Position numbers and translations under genes: made by a program. 25,336 nt of DNA from a virus. Shown here one piece after another: positions 16,272-22,118 of the stretch; within the stretch, counting starts at the first letter, position 1, and the number at the start of each line of letters is the position of its first letter. A model generated the notes under the pieces. The model was given only the letters and a program-made list of their open reading frames with translations. It ran no database searches and was not told the origin of the DNA. The DNA lies in IMG/VR virus record IMGVR_UViG_3300034642_000365, positions 1 to 25,336 of that record. One strand, 5' to 3'.

Positions 16272-16703
16272 TTAACATACAACATTTCTTTCTATAACAT
16301 CCCTTAGCTTATTGTTATCTTTTACTAATTGGTCGTTAGTTTCTTGTAACTCTTTATTTAGCTTATTAATTTCATTGTATTTTGTTAGAAGCTTTTCATA
16401 AGACATTACCTCACCATCTTCCTCGTCTATTATAGATTTAACAGCTAATTTTACTCTTTGCTGCAATACTTTAAACTCCCGATCAGTTTCTTGCCAATCT
16501 TTTAAATGTTTTAAACTATGCAGAACTGTTGCATGGTTAACTCCTACTGATTTACCTATAGACATTAAACTTCTATTAGTAAATTCCCTAGATAAGTTAT
16601 AATATATTGCTCTTGCATTTATTAGTCCCCTTACCCTGCTTTTAGTACCTAATTGTTCACCAGATACCTCTTCTACTATTTTACGTATTGTTTCTAATTT
16701 CAT
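16272..16703 (-). CDS. DnaA domain IV-like DNA-binding protein with coiled coil, 143 aa
   Basis: Residues about 1-75 resemble the C-terminal DNA-binding domain of DnaA: ARAIYYNLSREFTNRSL followed by SIGKSVGVNHATVLHSLKHL. The 'VNHATVLHS' part corresponds to the DnaA signature around 'DHTTVLHA', which contacts the DnaA box. The ATPase part of DnaA is absent. Residues 100-140 form a coiled coil (LLTKYNEINKLNKELQETND). The TTG six bases upstream is less likely as start than ATG 16703. It overlaps the 73-aa gene and precedes the terminase genes by about 50 bases. It may act at the phage origin or as a transcription regulator; the sequence supports DNA binding only. Confidence 0.7.
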   Translation of the reverse strand: MKLETIRKIVEEVSGEQLGTKSRVRGLINARAIYYNLSREFTNRSLMSIGKSVGVNHATVLHSLKHLKDWQETDREFKVLQQRVKLAVKSIIDEEDGEVMSYEKLLTKYNEINKLNKELQETNDQLVKDNNKLRDVIERNVVC

Positions 16704-16902
16704 TTTCAAATATTATTTTCTTTAACTCTTTTATTGTTTTTGTTTCAGCTATTTCTAAAGCTTTTTTTATACCTGCACATTCTTCATACAACTCTTCTCT
16801 TTCATAAAGCTCCAACTCTGCTTCAAGATCCGTAATAGCTCCACCATGTACTATATCTATTAAAGCCATTATGTAAAACTCGCGAATTATTTCTTTTTTC
16901 AT
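16681..16902 (-). CDS. Hypothetical helical protein, 73 aa
   Basis: Not recognised. It begins MKKEIIREFYIMALIDIVHG and is acidic and helical through the middle (DLEAELELYEREELYEECAG), with a basic helix later (KTIKELKKIIFENE). It has no membrane segment. It overlaps the nuclease gene by four bases (ATGA) and the DnaA-like gene by about 20, so it is likely coupled between the two. Confidence 0.55.
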   Translation of the reverse strand: MKKEIIREFYIMALIDIVHGGAITDLEAELELYEREELYEECAGIKKALEIAETKTIKELKKIIFENEIRNNT

Positions 16903-17933
16903 GCATCTAATGTGCCTTTTATAACATACGAATTAAGATCCTCCTCTTCTTTTATAAAATACTTTTCATATATCTTTAAACCATATTCTAGCTTTTCCTT
17001 TCCGCTATTATAAAAGTTTTCAGTAACATCATATATTCCCAAATCACCAGTAGATTTATCTATAGCAAAAAATACAAATTCCTGCCAATCCACTTTAAAA
17101 ATATTACAGTAAATATATACTTGTACATCATAACCATATTTTTTAGCACTCCAAGGAAATGCTTTTAGATCCGCCGTTGTTTTTAAATCCGCAATATAAT
17201 CAAATCCCAAAACATCCGCTTTTGCTCTAAAAGGATAACCATGTAATATATCAAAGCCAGGTTTTTCAAAACTAGCACCACGTGTTAACTTCTGCCATAC
17301 ATCGTTTTGCATTAAAGCATCCACTGTGTACATACTTTTATCGTAATCTTTTCTAGTGTAAACAAATTGGTCGCTACCTATTTCTGCTACCTTATCTTTA
17401 AACTTTTTAGTATTTTCTGATTGCACTTCTACTATATGACAAATGCTATTTAACTTTTCAGGCTCTAATGCTGCTAAATGGATTAACCTACCTACTTTAA
17501 AAGCTTTAGAATCCGAACTAAAGTTTAAAGATCTAGCATAAGACTTAGGAGAATCTATTAAAGATTTTATAGCGGAAGAACTTAAAGCGTATTTACCTAA
17601 CTCACCGTAGTAAAAATTATCATCATACATCTTTTTTATCAGTTCTTCTTTATTATATGTTTTACCATTAAGTAAACTTATTGTTTGCATTCTTTCTTGT
17701 GTTTTAGCATATATACTTTTCAATTCCGGTATAGGTATAAAACAGGTATCATTTCCTTTATAAGATGGATTTATACTTAACCTTAAAGCTTCCAGCTCAT
17801 ACTCCGTTTTAAATTTATATTCTTTTTCGTTTATAACTACATTAATACCACCCTTTGCCCAATTTAAAAAATTAAGTTTAGATGTTGTAAAAGTTACATG
17901 CTTCCAGCTTGGTTTCTTTATTATTGTTCTCAT
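16899..17933 (-). CDS. RecE-like PD-(D/E)XK exonuclease, 344 aa
   Basis: The C-terminal two thirds match the exonuclease VIII/PDDEXK family, which resects linear double-stranded DNA to make 3' overhangs for an annealing protein. The motifs are ALSSSAIKSLIDSPKSYA (116-133), VGRLIH with His152, then FEKPGF with Glu223, FRAKADVLG with Asp240, and the core IADLKTT with Asp249 and Lys251, followed by YDVQVYIY with Gln271. Residues 1-100 form an N-terminal region I do not recognise. The natural partner is the ERF protein about 7 kb upstream. It overlaps both the MazG-like gene before it and the 73-aa gene after it by four bases. Confidence 0.85.
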   Translation of the reverse strand: MRTIIKKPSWKHVTFTTSKLNFLNWAKGGINVVINEKEYKFKTEYELEALRLSINPSYKGNDTCFIPIPELKSIYAKTQERMQTISLLNGKTYNKEELIKKMYDDNFYYGELGKYALSSSAIKSLIDSPKSYARSLNFSSDSKAFKVGRLIHLAALEPEKLNSICHIVEVQSENTKKFKDKVAEIGSDQFVYTRKDYDKSMYTVDALMQNDVWQKLTRGASFEKPGFDILHGYPFRAKADVLGFDYIADLKTTADLKAFPWSAKKYGYDVQVYIYCNIFKVDWQEFVFFAIDKSTGDLGIYDVTENFYNSGKEKLEYGLKIYEKYFIKEEEDLNSYVIKGTLDA

Positions 17934-18232
17934 ACTTCCTTTACAAAAGAACCATTTTTTATACTCCCGGTTCTGTCTTTTATTTCATTATAAGCATTAT
18001 TAATGCAATTCTCTATAGTTGTTCCATTAAAATGTGCAATGCTTGTTAATACAACTACCATATCACCTATAGCATCATTAATTTCTTCTTTGTTTTGTGT
18101 TAACAAAGCTTTGGATAATTCCCCTGCTTCTTCCATTAATTTTATGTATTGCTTTTCTGCACTACCACTAGAATATATATCTCTTATTGTTGCCCATGTT
18201 CTAATGGGCTGGAACTCGTTTTTTAAATGCAT
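17930..18232 (-). CDS. MazG-like nucleotide pyrophosphohydrolase, 100 aa
   Basis: Small all-alpha NTP pyrophosphatase. The metal-binding motifs are visible: EEAGELSKAL (EExxE) and, after about a dozen residues, EINDAIGDMVVVLTSIA (ExxxD-type helix). The family hydrolyses (d)NTPs to monophosphates; which one cannot be told from sequence. Lying next to a possible dCMP hydroxymethylase, a dCTPase role, as with T4 gp56 (an all-alpha dCTPase), is an attractive inference. The start is ATG 18232; a TTG two codons upstream is the alternative. It overlaps the end of the amidotransferase gene by about 30 bases and the nuclease start by four. Confidence 0.75.
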   Translation of the reverse strand: MHLKNEFQPIRTWATIRDIYSSGSAEKQYIKLMEEAGELSKALLTQNKEEINDAIGDMVVVLTSIAHFNGTTIENCINNAYNEIKDRTGSIKNGSFVKEV

Positions 18233-19505
18233 AATCAAATAATTTTTTACCGTTGTTATAATTATCTTCTTTACTTCCTGTTGGTCTTAACGGTCTTTTT
18301 TTAGAACCAACAAAAGGTATTTTTTCGTTATATATCTTTTTTAATATATACTTATTTGTTCTTTCTATCTGCGGTAACTTCCTAGAAAAATTAACTATAT
18401 CTGAAGCAAGAAAAGGATTCCTACATTCTACAGTATGTGCCATCGAGCATCTATCTAACCTTACGTGGTGATAATAAGGTAACTCCATTAATACATCGTA
18501 TTCATAGGTATCCGATTCCTGACTTCTAGAATATCCACCAAACAATTCATCAGCGCCATCACCAGTTAAAACAGTATGTAATCCTAACTCCTTACATTTT
18601 TTAAAAAGTAAATATTGTGGTATAACACTTCCCAAATCCATGTCATATTCGTAAGATCTAAAAACCTCTACCTTTTCTTCTTCTGTTATTTTATTACTAA
18701 TAAAAATAGGTTTAAAACCTAAATAGGAACTAATTTTTTCACATCTTTCTTTTTCGTTATTATCTATAGATATAGCTGTAAAAGGTATGTTATTTTCTAA
18801 TAAATGGTAAGCTATAATAGAAGAATCTAATCCGCCAGAGAATAACAAACCTAATTTTCCGTAACTTTTTTCTGATCTTAATTTTACTGATTTGTTTATT
18901 AATTCGTATAATGTTAAGGTACTGGGTGGTTGAAATAAATAATCCTTTATATTAATTTTTAATCCATAAGCTAAACCATTTTCATATTCATATACATAAA
19001 ACTTACCAGGCATAGCTCTTAGAACACTATTAAACTTTGTATTTAACGTACCAAACTTAGGACTAGGCATTGTTAAAGAATCATTGTTTATTGGTTTTAT
19101 CTCACTGCATATACCCAACTTGCTATAGTATAATTGTTTTTTACCTAAGGGATCTGTAAAAAATAAAACACCTTTTTCATCTATATAACATATTGCCCAG
19201 AAACCATCCCATTTTTTATATTCGGTATTAAATCTTTTATTATGTATTCCCCTAGAAAAAAGATCTTTTAAATAATGCAAATCACTTTTATACTTACCAA
19301 AATCTTTATAATTAAATATTTCACCATTAAATAATAATATCCCACTATCTAATTTCAATGGTTGTTCTAATCCTTTTTCGTTACTAGACAAAGGTAATGA
19401 AGCAAAATGGTAATGCCATTTATCCTTTACACCGTAAACAGAAGATATTCCTCTATGTGATATTCCGTTTTCTTTTTTGCTTTTAGTTATCTGTATCCCG
19501 CACAT
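18201..19505 (-). CDS. Asparagine-synthase-like glutamine amidotransferase, 434 aa
   Basis: Two domains as in AsnB. The N-terminal Ntn amidotransferase has the nucleophile Cys2 (MCGIQ), NGEIFNY at 60-66 and TDPLGKKQLYY at 117-127. The C-terminal synthetase has the PP-loop FSGGLDSS at 222-229, TGDGADELFGGY at 314-325, and DRCSMAHTVECRNPFL at 351-366. The family adenylates a carboxylate and replaces AMP with ammonia from glutamine. Two oddities: where AsnB has the glutamine-binding Arg (H-x-R-L type) this protein reads HFASLPL, and the C-terminus (FVGSKKRPLRPTG) departs from the usual R.K.GF.P pattern. At 434 residues it is about 120 shorter than E. coli AsnB. Its place between a thymidylate-synthase-like enzyme and a MazG-like enzyme suggests a nucleotide or DNA-base substrate, but plain asparagine synthesis is possible. 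Confidence 0.85.
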   Translation of the reverse strand: MCGIQITKSKKENGISHRGISSVYGVKDKWHYHFASLPLSSNEKGLEQPLKLDSGILLFNGEIFNYKDFGKYKSDLHYLKDLFSRGIHNKRFNTEYKKWDGFWAICYIDEKGVLFFTDPLGKKQLYYSKLGICSEIKPINNDSLTMPSPKFGTLNTKFNSVLRAMPGKFYVYEYENGLAYGLKINIKDYLFQPPSTLTLYELINKSVKLRSEKSYGKLGLLFSGGLDSSIIAYHLLENNIPFTAISIDNNEKERCEKISSYLGFKPIFISNKITEEEKVEVFRSYEYDMDLGSVIPQYLLFKKCKELGLHTVLTGDGADELFGGYSRSQESDTYEYDVLMELPYYHHVRLDRCSMAHTVECRNPFLASDIVNFSRKLPQIERTNKYILKKIYNEKIPFVGSKKRPLRPTGSKEDNYNNGKKLFDYAFKKRVPAH

Positions 19506-20208
19506 ATTTATTTATATAATATAAATCACTTTTAAAACAATGTAAAGAACCAATCCACATATACATATTACCAGGCTCTTCTAATATATCCTGACAAACA
19601 AATTGTAGCAATCTATAAGTCATATATATATCGTTTCTTAAATGCCTAACAGCATCACAACTTCTTATATGGTAAGTTATATTTATTTTTCCATTCTCTT
19701 TATAGAACCAATAACCCAAAGTACAAGGAACCCTAACATCATTGTTACTTTGGTCTTCCGGATGCCAAACAGATAAATAAGCTTGTCTAGTATTTGGATT
19801 TTTTCTTAATCTATCCATAACATCATGCAAATCCCCGTATTGGTATCTTCTTCCTTTTAAATCGCTACACCAATATCTTTCCATATAATTATGGCTAAAT
19901 TTACCTTTGCTCCTAAACAACCTATCATTATCCAAATCTTTAGCTTCGTAAAAAGGCCAATTGCGATATTCTTTTCCAGGGTTTATAGGAAAACCATTTA
20001 CCCTTTCTTCAAAATGATCCATAGCCCAAGGTAAGTTAGGATCCGTATCTTTTATTAAATCATTAGAAGAACCTAAGTTTACAAATACATTTGTTATTTC
20101 TACCAATGGGTTGTTATCAGCTATCTTTATACTTTGCCAATTTTTATTATCGCTTTCTATATGGTAGCTATATAACTTACTATAAAGATCTATAATTGTT
20201 CTTTTCAT
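19483..20208 (-). CDS. Thymidylate-synthase-family enzyme, possible dCMP hydroxymethylase, 241 aa
   Basis: Methylates or hydroxymethylates a pyrimidine deoxynucleotide using methylenetetrahydrofolate. Family residues visible: Arg141 (NTRQAYLSVWHPED), catalytic Cys162 in RVPCTLGYWFY, phosphate-binding RSCD at 182-185, and His223 in MWIGSLHCF. Counting eight residues on from Asp185, as E. coli ThyA goes from Asp169 to Asn177, gives Asp193 (RNDIYM). Asn at this site selects dUMP; Asp occurs in dCMP-specific hydroxymethylases such as T4 gp42 (Asp179). Asn192 is adjacent, so a one-residue alignment shift would change this reading. The tyrosine two after His in ThyA is Phe225 here. It overlaps the methyltransferase gene (ATGA) and the amidotransferase gene by 23 bases. 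Confidence 0.85.
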   Translation of the reverse strand: MKRTIIDLYSKLYSYHIESDNKNWQSIKIADNNPLVEITNVFVNLGSSNDLIKDTDPNLPWAMDHFEERVNGFPINPGKEYRNWPFYEAKDLDNDRLFRSKGKFSHNYMERYWCSDLKGRRYQYGDLHDVMDRLRKNPNTRQAYLSVWHPEDQSNNDVRVPCTLGYWFYKENGKINITYHIRSCDAVRHLRNDIYMTYRLLQFVCQDILEEPGNMYMWIGSLHCFKSDLYYINKYVRDTDN

Positions 20209-21080
20209 TTATGATTTATTTTTTTTAATACTACACCTATTTGATATAGAGGTAATTTTACTTCTGGGTATTTTAATCTATAAGTTCTAATAAACAAAGT
20301 TTCTGGTACATGTTTATGACAAAACCAACTATGATAAACTAAACCAGTATCTTCTGTTATCCAATTGCATAGCATTTTTTGTAATAAAAAAGGTTGCTTA
20401 TTCCTAATAGGATCTTTTATTATTAAACATAAATAAGAACCAGGATTCATAAGTTGATAACAATCCTTATACATCTTACGTATAAATTTTTCGTAATTAC
20501 CATTAGGGTATCCTAATAAACCATAAGAATCTTTTTCTATATAATTACTCATCCTTTCCATCCTAAAAGGTGCATCACTGGATGTTCCACCATCTTTTCC
20601 ATTAACAGGATAAGGTGTTCCGTTTATTATTAGATCCGTTTTTAAACCACCCATAATCTTTAACAAGTCATGGGCATTTCCTTTAAAAACTTTCCCATTG
20701 TTTTTTTTCTGGTAATCTATATTTTTTTTACATAGATCTGGCCATTCTAATTCGATACCATATCCTACACGATCGTTGTTTATAGCTTCTATTATAGCAG
20801 TACCAGATCCAACAGTAGGATCGAAAACTACTTGTTTAGGTTTGGTTAAATGTTGTATAGCAAATCTATACCCCTGGAAATGACCTTCGTCTAAATGTTT
20901 ATTATCATGCTTTGGTCTATATTTTTTACCACCTAAAGAAGAGTAATGTTTATCATTAAATATATCATATATTTCACCTAAAAAAGTTCCTGGTGGTACC
21001 CAATGTAAATCGCTAGGAATAACCTGCCTAGTGGTTAATAATTCCGTTTTTGTTACCGTATTTGTGTTTTTACTTTCCAT
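20205..21080 (-). CDS. Class I SAM-dependent DNA methyltransferase, 291 aa
   Basis: The SAM-binding motif I is at 87-94 (DPTVGSGT), preceded by GYRFAIQHLTKPKQVVF, a motif X-like segment, and followed by RVGYGIELEW, the acidic loop binding the ribose. The catalytic motif IV position reads INGTPYPVNG (152-161), where amino-methyltransferases usually have D/N-P-P-Y. Thus Thr takes the place of the first Pro. Beyond this, MYKDCYQLMNPGSYLCLIIKD (203-223) is typical of phage and archaeal N4/N6 DNA methyltransferases. No restriction nuclease lies nearby, so it is an orphan enzyme, used for protection or for modification of a hypermodified base. Overlaps: 11 bases with the DUF6378-like gene, four with the thymidylate-synthase-like gene. 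Confidence 0.75.
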   Translation of the reverse strand: MESKNTNTVTKTELLTTRQVIPSDLHWVPPGTFLGEIYDIFNDKHYSSLGGKKYRPKHDNKHLDEGHFQGYRFAIQHLTKPKQVVFDPTVGSGTAIIEAINNDRVGYGIELEWPDLCKKNIDYQKKNNGKVFKGNAHDLLKIMGGLKTDLIINGTPYPVNGKDGGTSSDAPFRMERMSNYIEKDSYGLLGYPNGNYEKFIRKMYKDCYQLMNPGSYLCLIIKDPIRNKQPFLLQKMLCNWITEDTGLVYHSWFCHKHVPETLFIRTYRLKYPEVKLPLYQIGVVLKKINHK

Positions 21081-21372
21081 CCTTTTCTACTATATCTGCT
21101 TTTTCAATCTTAATGTTTTCTTTGTAGTTATTTAAAGCACCTATATAAGCTACAAGATCTAATAAATTATCCTCTTTATGGTGCCAACTTTCTCTAGCTA
21201 ATTTTAAAGCTATTTGCATATTATACATGTCTGTTACTGTTATTTCTTTGCTAGATAAAACAGAAGCTATAACAGATGCACGTCTATTGCATTCACTAAA
21301 AGGTCCATACATTCTTTCCTTTTCTTCTGACCTTTCGTTTACAATCTGATTAGCTTTTTCTAGAATATTCAT
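21070..21372 (-). CDS. DUF6378-like phage protein, 100 aa
   Basis: Matches my recollection of the DUF6378 family: ERMYGPFSECNRRASVIASV (19-38), MYNMQIALKLARESWHHKED (49-68) and NLLDLVAYIGALNNYKEN (69-86). The 'ERxxxYG', 'KLAR' and 'D.vAYi' patterns are the family features. These small phage proteins are all-helical and of unknown function; similarity in layout to MazG-like pyrophosphatases is suggestive only. The start overlaps the 55-aa gene by 23 bases and the end overlaps the methyltransferase by 11, so it is part of the modification cassette. Confidence 0.75.
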   Translation of the reverse strand: MNILEKANQIVNERSEEKERMYGPFSECNRRASVIASVLSSKEITVTDMYNMQIALKLARESWHHKEDNLLDLVAYIGALNNYKENIKIEKADIVEKDGK

Positions 21373-21517
21373 TTTGTTCTAATTTTTTATAATACCAATC
21401 TTTGCAACGATTTCTATAGTAATCTAAAAGGTTAGGATTATCCATATCTGTTTTTAATTGCTCCAATGTCATATTATCATAATACCAATCATCGGATAAA
21501 TCTTTTCTGAGTTTCAT
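21350..21517 (-). CDS. Small hypothetical protein, 55 aa, with DWYY repeats
   Basis: Starts at ATG 21517 and ends within the next gene. The product has two similar stretches: DDWYYDNMTLEQL and KDWYYKKLEQNE, about 30 residues apart, each with D-W-Y-Y and a following L-E-Q. A related WKDDWYY is in the 57-aa membrane protein (14141-14314). No family recognised. A promoter-like element (21540-21547) lies 23 bases upstream, making this the first gene of the cassette on that transcript. Confidence 0.6.
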   Translation of the reverse strand: MKLRKDLSDDWYYDNMTLEQLKTDMDNPNLLDYYRNRCKDWYYKKLEQNEYSRKS

Positions 21518-21539
21518 ATGTTAAATTGTTTATACATTG

Positions 21540-21547
21540 TAAATATA
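21540..21547 (-). promoter_or_regulatory. Putative promoter -7 element for the modification cassette
   Basis: TATATTTA on the minus strand, extended to TATATTTACAATGTA, matches the element at 990-1002 for ten bases and differs from that at 14761-14775 at two of fifteen. It sits in the 57-base gap between the MazG-like and 55-aa genes. No TTG at a proper distance was found, so it is weak evidence. Confidence 0.3.
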
Positions 21548-21574
21548 TAAATTTTTTTTATATAAACATTTAAT

Positions 21575-21838
21575 TTACAATTTATTTTGTGTTTTTAATT
21601 TTTCTATATATAAAATAGCATCCATTAACTCTTCTTGTAAATGGTTTAAAAATTCATAATAACCATCAGGAGAATCATACAAGGTTGTTCCATATTTTTC
21701 TATACCCTTACGGCTTCTAGCTTTCATCCTATCTATTACGCTTACTACTATAGGATCTTTAGGTAAATGGTTATAAGTATTATCTGTTGTCCAACCATTA
21801 TCTAACATTTCATAATATTTTTCTACTGAATCACTCAT
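21575..21838 (-). CDS. MazG-like phage protein, 87 aa
   Basis: The C-terminal part reads RMKARSRKGIEKYGTTL (about 36-52) and FLNHLQEELMDAILYIEKLK, with the EExxDxxxY pattern of all-alpha nucleotide pyrophosphatases and small relatives found in many phages. The length allows only part of the four-helix bundle, so it may act as an oligomer, and the substrate is unknown. ATG 21838 (MSDSVEKYY) is used rather than TTG 21844. It overlaps the stop of the gene before by eight bases. It ends the operon segment before the 57-base gap. Confidence 0.6.
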   Translation of the reverse strand: MSDSVEKYYEMLDNGWTTDNTYNHLPKDPIVVSVIDRMKARSRKGIEKYGTTLYDSPDGYYEFLNHLQEELMDAILYIEKLKTQNKL

Positions 21839-22118
21839 CTCCAACTATTTCTTCTATTTTACTTTCCGCTTCCCTTGCTCTTAATACAGCTTTGTTTTTT
21901 TGTTCCCTATAATCCTGTATAGCTTTTATCATATAGGTTTTGTTTCTTTCTAATTCAAAAACATATTTATATATTTCACTTAAAGCATCTATCATTTCTT
22001 GTACAACCTTATTTTTGTTTTTCTTTTTTAACTCTAATAAAGTTTCAGATAGAAATAAAAAATTAGAACTAAATTCCATTTCTTTTAATAATGTAATTTT
22101 TTTATTTATATTCCGCAT
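21831..22118 (-). CDS. Coiled-coil hypothetical protein, 95 aa
   Basis: Almost entirely helical and charged: TLLELKKKNKNKVVQEM, EIYKYVFELERNKTYMIKAI, and LRAREAESKIEEIVGDE at the end. No membrane segment and no enzyme motif. It overlaps the neighbouring genes on both sides (17 bases upstream, eight downstream), so it is cotranslated with the replication genes. Function unknown. Confidence 0.6.
   Translation of the reverse strand: MRNINKKITLLKEMEFSSNFLFLSETLLELKKKNKNKVVQEMIDALSEIYKYVFELERNKTYMIKAIQDYREQKNKAVLRAREAESKIEEIVGDE

Follow-up and report, generated by a model that had tools for sequence, protein, structure and literature searches.

The window analysed here is the IMG/VR virus record IMGVR_UViG_3300034642_000365 of 25,336 bases, to which coordinates refer unless a locus handle is given. 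It carries a minus-strand gene cassette at 17930-21372 that, on comparative evidence, probably encodes a pathway of at least two steps by which the phage hypermodifies its own cytosines. At the core of the cassette stand a dCMP-type homologue of thymidylate synthase (TS), which we call TS-D, and an AsnB-like amidotransferase; with less confidence, we lean toward a cytosine hypermodification in which the AsnB-like enzyme would act on a base derived from TS-D. What is directly established comprises the genes with the domains and catalytic residues of their products, the dCMP signature, and the repeated linkage of TS-D with the AsnB-like gene. The core genes and their sites are located as follows.

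19483..20208, minus strand: TS-D, dCMP-type TS homologue, 241 aa (PF00303, 5e-13; PHROG 160, 1e-33)
19723..19725, minus strand: codon of TS-D Cys162, catalytic nucleophile, invariant in the family alignment
19720..19722, minus strand: codon of TS-D Thr163, aligned with position 147 of E. coli TS
19630..19632, minus strand: codon of TS-D Asp193, aligned with position 177 of E. coli TS and Asp179 of T4 gp42
18201..19505, minus strand: AsnB-like glutamine-dependent amidotransferase, 434 aa (PF00733, 8e-28; PF13537, GATase_7, 3e-6)
19500..19502, minus strand: codon of AsnB-like Cys2, N-terminal glutaminase nucleophile (MCGI start)
18819..18839, minus strand: AsnB-like SGGLDSS pyrophosphate loop, ATP site (Ser223 and Asp227 conserved)

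Hypermodification of phage DNA forms a layer of the arms race on which the success of restriction and CRISPR systems depends, and it supplies enzymes for DNA labelling. The window leads to an amidotransferase family that appears to be confined to phages, comprises at least 17 divergent clusters and is tied to a TS homologue of the dCMP type. In the literature searched we found no pairing of AsnB with TS in phages and no product assigned to the combination. An earlier note, made from the window's sequence, had already stated the lack of an assigned product; CmoX/CmoY, described below, is nevertheless a closely related precedent.

The dCMP-type TS homologue and its pairing with the AsnB-like gene

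Alignment placed Asp193 of TS-D opposite Asp179 of T4 gp42 and the Asp of the engineered L. casei mutant N229D, the chain bearing Asp at 229 that was also its best match in the PDB. The dCMP-type residue claimed in the earlier note is thus present. The window protein has the Cys-Thr-Asp triad of gp42, and Cys, Thr/Ser and Asp occupy the three positions in 49/49 distinct TS-D proteins from AsnB-bearing loci. Asp was not found at the 177 position in two ViI-like homologues, which we take to be dUMP hydroxymethylases, nor in the TS of Achromobacter phage Motura, which has His at the 147 position; the SPO1 region examined for comparison contained no dUMP hydroxymethylase. In MetaGPA, the TS positions with the strongest association to cytosine-modified phage contigs were 177, occupied there by Asp, and 147 (PMC8670742). 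Moreover, TS-D ends at residue 241, soon after its GSLHCFK motif, and lacks the C-terminal tail of TS, as does T4 gp42 (PMC6400193). By these residues TS-D is of the dCMP type, and it is likely to hydroxymethylate dCMP. A separate source of thymidylate was found in at least five AsnB/TS-D records (ThyX in at least three, a strong second TS match in two others), which makes TS-D dispensable for thymidylate; together with the dCMP signature, this led us to reject TS-D as the phage's thymidylate source.

Next, we looked into how TS-D and the AsnB-like gene were linked across viruses. We detected members of the AsnB-like family in 80 viral contigs and grouped them into 17 clusters, defined by less than 55% identity between clusters. 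In 15 of these, TS-D lay at most six genes away in every member. The two genes were on the same strand in 26/26 representatives, often overlapping, and their order was mostly TS-AsnB, with AsnB-TS in L008, L021, L034, L069 and L189. This association is far beyond chance. The earlier note had proposed a search for a conserved neighbourhood, and it had named beforehand amidotransferase relatives without a TS as the finding that would speak against its model. No such refutation emerged: TS and AsnB are paired, in two gene orders, in 15 of the 17 clusters, and five large contigs of the other two clusters encode a TS elsewhere.

Those two clusters are T4-like by our reading of their gene content. 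Their five contigs with a distant TS-D include both that exceed 200 kb (245 kb and 219 kb); among the ten contigs above 110 kb, none of them known to be complete, TS-D was present in five and not found in five. Directly before AsnB in both clusters, and likewise in L008, is a P-loop protein (family F1; L027:5431-6000 and L008:5474-6016) of about 180 to 190 aa with GxRNSGKT and DRG motifs. It gave weak AAA matches only, under the cut-off, and is possibly a nucleotide or base kinase.

The reverse search found AsnB near 37 of 73 TS-D loci, and an Asn_synthase gene in 0/25 AsnB-free TS-D records. TS-D is thus seen without AsnB, and no full genome was seen with AsnB and without TS-D; most simply, AsnB would use the product of TS-D. 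From this pattern, the AsnB-like enzyme probably acts downstream of TS-D. The distances of the two proteins were also correlated across the 26 representatives (r = 0.70). However, in the seven representatives with a terminase gene, AsnB distances correlated with terminase distances too, so co-divergence cannot separate co-evolution from phage ancestry, and we did not keep it as evidence.

TS-D-type genes also occur in cultured phages. The annotated "thymidylate synthases" of Mycobacterium phage Muddy (gp46; L100:2968-3741), Gordonia phage Vine (gp51; L209:3935-4723) and Brevundimonas phage Polewnik (L099:3923-4765) bear the Cys-Thr-Asp signature, and a dCMP deaminase gene lies near TS-D in Muddy and Vine. 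Judged by this signature, these cultured phages may carry modified cytosine, and the annotations in Muddy and Vine in particular deserve a flag. Near TS-D in AsnB-free phages there are also proteins of about 250 to 300 aa (L100:2072-2965, L170:5147-5980, L153:118-882) with no Pfam match where tested; the one of about 280 aa upstream of TS-D in Muddy-like phages matched nothing in Pfam and, at best, a PHROG without an assigned function. By eye, these might be very divergent TS-like proteins. Locus L174 has two tandem TS homologues, of which the shorter carries Asn at position 177 and lacks a Cys where the catalytic one aligns.

The AsnB-like amidotransferase and the systems it resembles

The AlphaFold2 model of the AsnB-like protein is a confident one (pLDDT 88.6, pTM 0.89), and the top PDB matches are human ASNS and E. 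coli AsnB (1CT9), followed by beta-lactam synthetase. Across 27 aligned family members, Cys2 was conserved in 26, and NGE, Ser223 and Asp227 in all 27; the GDGxDE motif was conserved as well. Judged from sequence and model, the protein is a complete glutamine-dependent amidotransferase. The family appears to be phage-specific: a tblastn search with the window protein against 50,697 cultured-phage records gave no match at E 1e-5, and a pattern-limited scan of bacterial genomes gave one weak 26% match.

We considered whether the phage might make plain 5-hydroxymethylcytosine in the manner of T4, with AsnB serving metabolism, either as a source of free asparagine or in the amidation of a small molecule or one on the host cell surface. 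Roles of this kind are common to many bacterial AsnB-type enzymes, the fold here is that of AsnB, and the asparagine synthase model TIGR01536 was the top NCBIfam match. Yet that match scored 136.8 bits against a cut-off of 267.1, about half, and in 26/27 members PFL[ASGN] replaces the PFLD motif found in human and E. coli AsnB. Furthermore, neither the linkage to TS-D in 15/17 clusters nor the lack of Asn_synthase genes from all 25 AsnB-free TS-D records would be expected of a general metabolic gene. We regard a metabolic role as unlikely. An ordinary asparagine synthase in particular was rejected, given the score below cut-off and the tie to TS-D.

The closest proven chemistry is that of the CmoA-CmoX-CmoY system of Synechococcus phage S-B43, where an AsnB-superfamily enzyme likewise lies beside base-modifying genes and has been proven to form an amide on a C5 substituent of cytosine at the expense of ATP: CmoY, an AsnB homologue, couples glycine to the carboxylate of 5-carboxymethylcytosine in DNA via a proposed adenylate (PMC12783734). 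That study mentions no thymidylate synthase, whereas the core partner here is TS-D. SpCmoY (271 aa) lacks a glutaminase domain, and the window enzyme has one. This glutaminase-plus-synthetase architecture is shared with a cluster of glutamine-hydrolysing ligases that were predicted to use ammonia and could not be purified, being insoluble (PMC12783734). It is also shared with gp124 of Streptomyces phage TurkishDelight, a protein 21% identical to the window enzyme (profile match E 3e-26). The gp124 gene is flanked on one side by a CmoX-type gene (SPPC motif, Arg at 350) and on the other by a further gene annotated as a methyltransferase; it is linked to CmoX rather than to TS-D, and it keeps PFLD. 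A straight CmoA-CmoX-CmoY system was rejected for the window, which holds no CmoA and no CmoX-type C5-methyltransferase (SPPC with Arg350).

The T4 pathway to hydroxymethylcytosine (gp42 dCMP hydroxymethylase, gp56 dCTPase) resembles the cassette in its dCMP-type TS homologue without a C-terminal tail, with Asp and Thr at both specificity positions, and here a MazG-type pyrophosphatase is nearby. It differs in having glucosyltransferases where the cassette has an amidotransferase, and its Ser94 and Asp145 are not conserved here. The cassette thus resembles the T4 and CmoY systems combined, yet lacks a defining feature of each. The 5-hydroxymethylcytosine carbamoyltransferase system described by MetaGPA likewise combines a TS and phosphoribosyl-ATP pyrophosphohydrolase (PRA-PH) neighbourhood with one interchangeable hypermodifying enzyme; PRA-PH and dCMP deaminase domains co-occur with TS in cytosine-modified phage contigs (PMC8670742). 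The MazG protein of the window matches PRA-PH, several sister cassettes encode a dCMP deaminase, and AsnB stands here in place of the carbamoyltransferase. Carbam_trans_N was found in 1/40 TS-D records tested and was absent from the window record. These likenesses suggest that finishing enzymes can be exchanged on a shared TS-D platform: AsnB, a C5-type methyltransferase or a carbamoyltransferase. A carbamoyltransferase-type protein (PF02543, 3e-61) is encoded on the 245-kb AsnB/TS-D contig (L212), about 150 kb from AsnB.

The AsnB-like gene of Motura (L192:8001-9281) belongs to a guanine pathway, a 7-deazaguanine cluster with queC, queE and a tRNA-guanine transglycosylase homologue, and lies between queC and the transglycosylase homologue. 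Its product is 27.6% identical, over 57%, to a distant member of the AsnB-like family. From this context, AsnB-like enzymes would seem to enter 7-deazaguanine DNA pathways too.

Accessory methyltransferases and the proposed chemistry

Between DUF6378 and TS-D the window encodes a protein with a methyltransferase fold.

20205..21080, minus strand: S-adenosylmethionine (SAM)-methyltransferase-fold protein, 291 aa, with non-canonical motif IV (PF01555, N6_N4_Mtase, 4e-9)
20610..20621, minus strand: its motif IV, GTPY (G154, P156, Y157 and P158 invariant in the family)

The DNA methyltransferase of the earlier note is indeed an orphan; what had gone unnoticed was its motif IV, GTPYP and not DPPY. 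The SAM-binding motif I (DPTVGSGT) and the Rossmann fold are present (AlphaFold2 pTM 0.83). In all family members motif IV reads G(T/F)PYP, as against (D/N/S)PP(Y/F/W) in amino-methyltransferases, so the protein may not methylate an exocyclic amine. Foldseek matched many SAM-methyltransferases (TM up to about 0.5, with archaeal Trm11 among the best), from which no substrate could be named, and we gave up structure as a guide to it. The protein occurs in 8/48 AsnB/TS-D records and a C5-type methyltransferase in 4/48, never both and always within the cassette. The C5-type proteins near TS-D (L017:4873-5991, L020:4060-5178, L042:3262-4491, L149:6729-7730), some of them in cassettes with AsnB, have Lys at the place of CmoX Arg350 and an acidic residue preceding their catalytic Cys (PEC, TEC or PDC motifs) in every member showing these positions. 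The window record holds no C5-type methyltransferase of this TS-D-linked family, and no cassette protein matches PF00145. CmoX uses carboxy-SAM, as does the engineered M.MpeI N374K (PMC12783734). The C5-type proteins thus point, by their residues, to carboxymethyl chemistry in sister cassettes, where they would be a possible second type of carboxy-SAM enzyme.

We infer the reactions that follow, their order and DNA cytosine as their target. By analogy, the MazG protein would remove unmodified dCTP or a related nucleotide. TS-D, with methylene-tetrahydrofolate, would add a one-carbon group at C5 of dCMP, most likely to give 5-hydroxymethyl-dCMP, which would be phosphorylated and then incorporated into DNA. 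Downstream, Cys2 of the AsnB-like enzyme would release ammonia from glutamine and the ammonia would be channelled to the ATP-binding synthetase domain, which would adenylate a C5 side-chain carboxylate (or, with less likelihood, a carbonyl) to form an amide. For an intervening step between TS-D and the AsnB-like enzyme in this phage, such as the addition of the group to be amidated, the GTPYP protein would be the leading candidate. The glutamine-hydrolysing architecture and the kinship to gp124 together suggest a TS-D-initiated cytosine pathway ended by ammonia-dependent amidation. This is close to the core idea of the earlier note, a T4-type nucleotide step and then an amidotransferase, which gains from the 49/49 dCMP signature, the recurrent pairing, the MetaGPA associations and the CmoY precedent, and loses the second of its two MazG proteins.

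Several observations weigh against this pathway. Most cassettes hold only TS-D and AsnB, which leaves the carboxylate for AsnB unexplained. The position aligned with AsnB Arg49, a glutamine-binding residue, is Ser in the window's own clade and Arg in 11/27 members overall, so glutamine is possibly not the best ammonia source in that clade. TS-D is 22% identical to T4 gp42, in which Ser94 and Asp145 position and activate the attacking water (PMC6400193), a role established for T4 only; the two are replaced in TS-D by His and Arg159, so the nucleophile that ends the reaction is uncertain and hydroxymethylation is what we infer. In addition, CmoA was found in 0/47 records with a profile that detects phage CmoA (SpCmoA control, 2.8e-33). 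Finally, nearly all records are fragments, so absences among them weigh little.

Possible sources of the carboxylate are the odd methyltransferases, host enzymes and TS-D acting with another nucleophile. TS-D and AsnB could build a previously undescribed amide-bearing cytosine, with the carboxylate brought in by a new carboxyl transfer to hydroxymethylcytosine (by the GTPYP protein here) or by TS-D itself with a carboxylate-bearing nucleophile; we put this forward tentatively, as a doubtful proposal.

The methyltransferases raise a different route, a variant of CmoX-CmoY in which cytosine in DNA is carboxymethylated from carboxy-SAM (by the methyltransferase-fold protein here and the C5-type enzyme in sisters) and AsnB amidates it to 5-carbamoylmethylcytosine, the role of TS-D being separate. 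AsnB is homologous to CmoY and to the CmoX-linked gp124, and the Lys of the sister enzymes at the Arg350 position is that of M.MpeI N374K, which takes carboxy-SAM (PMC12783734). Against this route, the profile that finds phage CmoA detected it in none of the 47 records, although CmoA supplied by the host can substitute (PMC12783734); the two methyltransferase types, in so few of the 48 records, are not needed for the core; C5 carboxymethyl and C5 hydroxymethyl groups would compete for the same position; and the CmoX authors found no N6/N4-type carboxymethyltransferases (PMC12783734). Such a route seems improbable.

Alternatively, TS-D might close its reaction not with water but with another nucleophile, such as glycine, to give a carboxylate-bearing dCMP that AsnB would amidate at the nucleotide or DNA level. 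MnmE/MnmG put such a carboxylate-bearing group on tRNA. This would account for cassettes with TS-D and AsnB alone, and the Arg that replaces T4 Asp145 in the TS-D family could hold the carboxylate. However, the same Arg is present in TS-D of the AsnB-free phages Muddy, Vine and Polewnik, and we know of no TS-family enzyme that ends its reaction with a carboxylate-bearing nucleophile. We consider this explanation very improbable; if true, it would be a new reaction for the TS family.

Remaining genes and setting of the cassette

The other genes of the region are as follows.

17930..18238, minus strand: MazG/PRA-PH-type protein, candidate dCTP/dNTP pyrophosphatase (PF01503, 5e-5, and PF03819, 2e-4, both above cut-off)
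21070..21372, minus strand: DUF6378 protein, 100 aa (PF19905, 2e-10)
21350..21517, minus strand: open reading frame (ORF) of 55 aa without a family match (ORF list, Pfam)
16899..17933, minus strand: DUF3799/exonuclease VIII-like gene, replication-module context, outside the pathway (PF12684, 4e-20; PHROG exonuclease VIII, 4e-26)

In the order of transcription the genes run DUF6378, methyltransferase-fold protein, TS-D, AsnB-like, MazG/PRA-PH and then the exonuclease VIII-like gene. The cassette genes are all on the minus strand, and the compact layout with overlapping ends described in the earlier note was borne out: adjoining genes share 4 to 38 bases. Family searches support the names given here to the five genes. 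The MazG gene overlaps the AsnB-like gene by 38 nt and starts with TTG, with an alternative ATG 6 nt downstream. Its product matched the MazG-like PHROG (4e-34) and MazG-type PDB entries (best 1vmg, 1.6e-9), and its EE...D..D pattern is conserved. This is one of the two MazG pyrophosphatases that had been claimed. The second, probably the 89-aa ORF at 21575-21844, gave no hit in Pfam at E values of 0.1 or below and matched only PHROGs of unknown function. The DUF6378 profile aligned neither with the MazG profile nor with any PDB sequence, and we therefore rejected DUF6378 as another MazG; in gene maps across records its gene usually lies directly upstream of TS-D.

The 55-aa ORF is probably on the same transcript as the cassette and outside its conserved part. 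The cassette is flanked upstream by DnaB-like helicase and ERF genes and downstream by a DnaA-type helix-turn-helix protein and terminase, an ordinary tailed-phage replication-packaging junction. The helix-turn-helix protein (16272-16709), which has a DnaA domain IV match (PF08299, 8e-11) and adjoins a terminase small-subunit-like gene, is by that match a possible phage-encoded DnaA-box binder.

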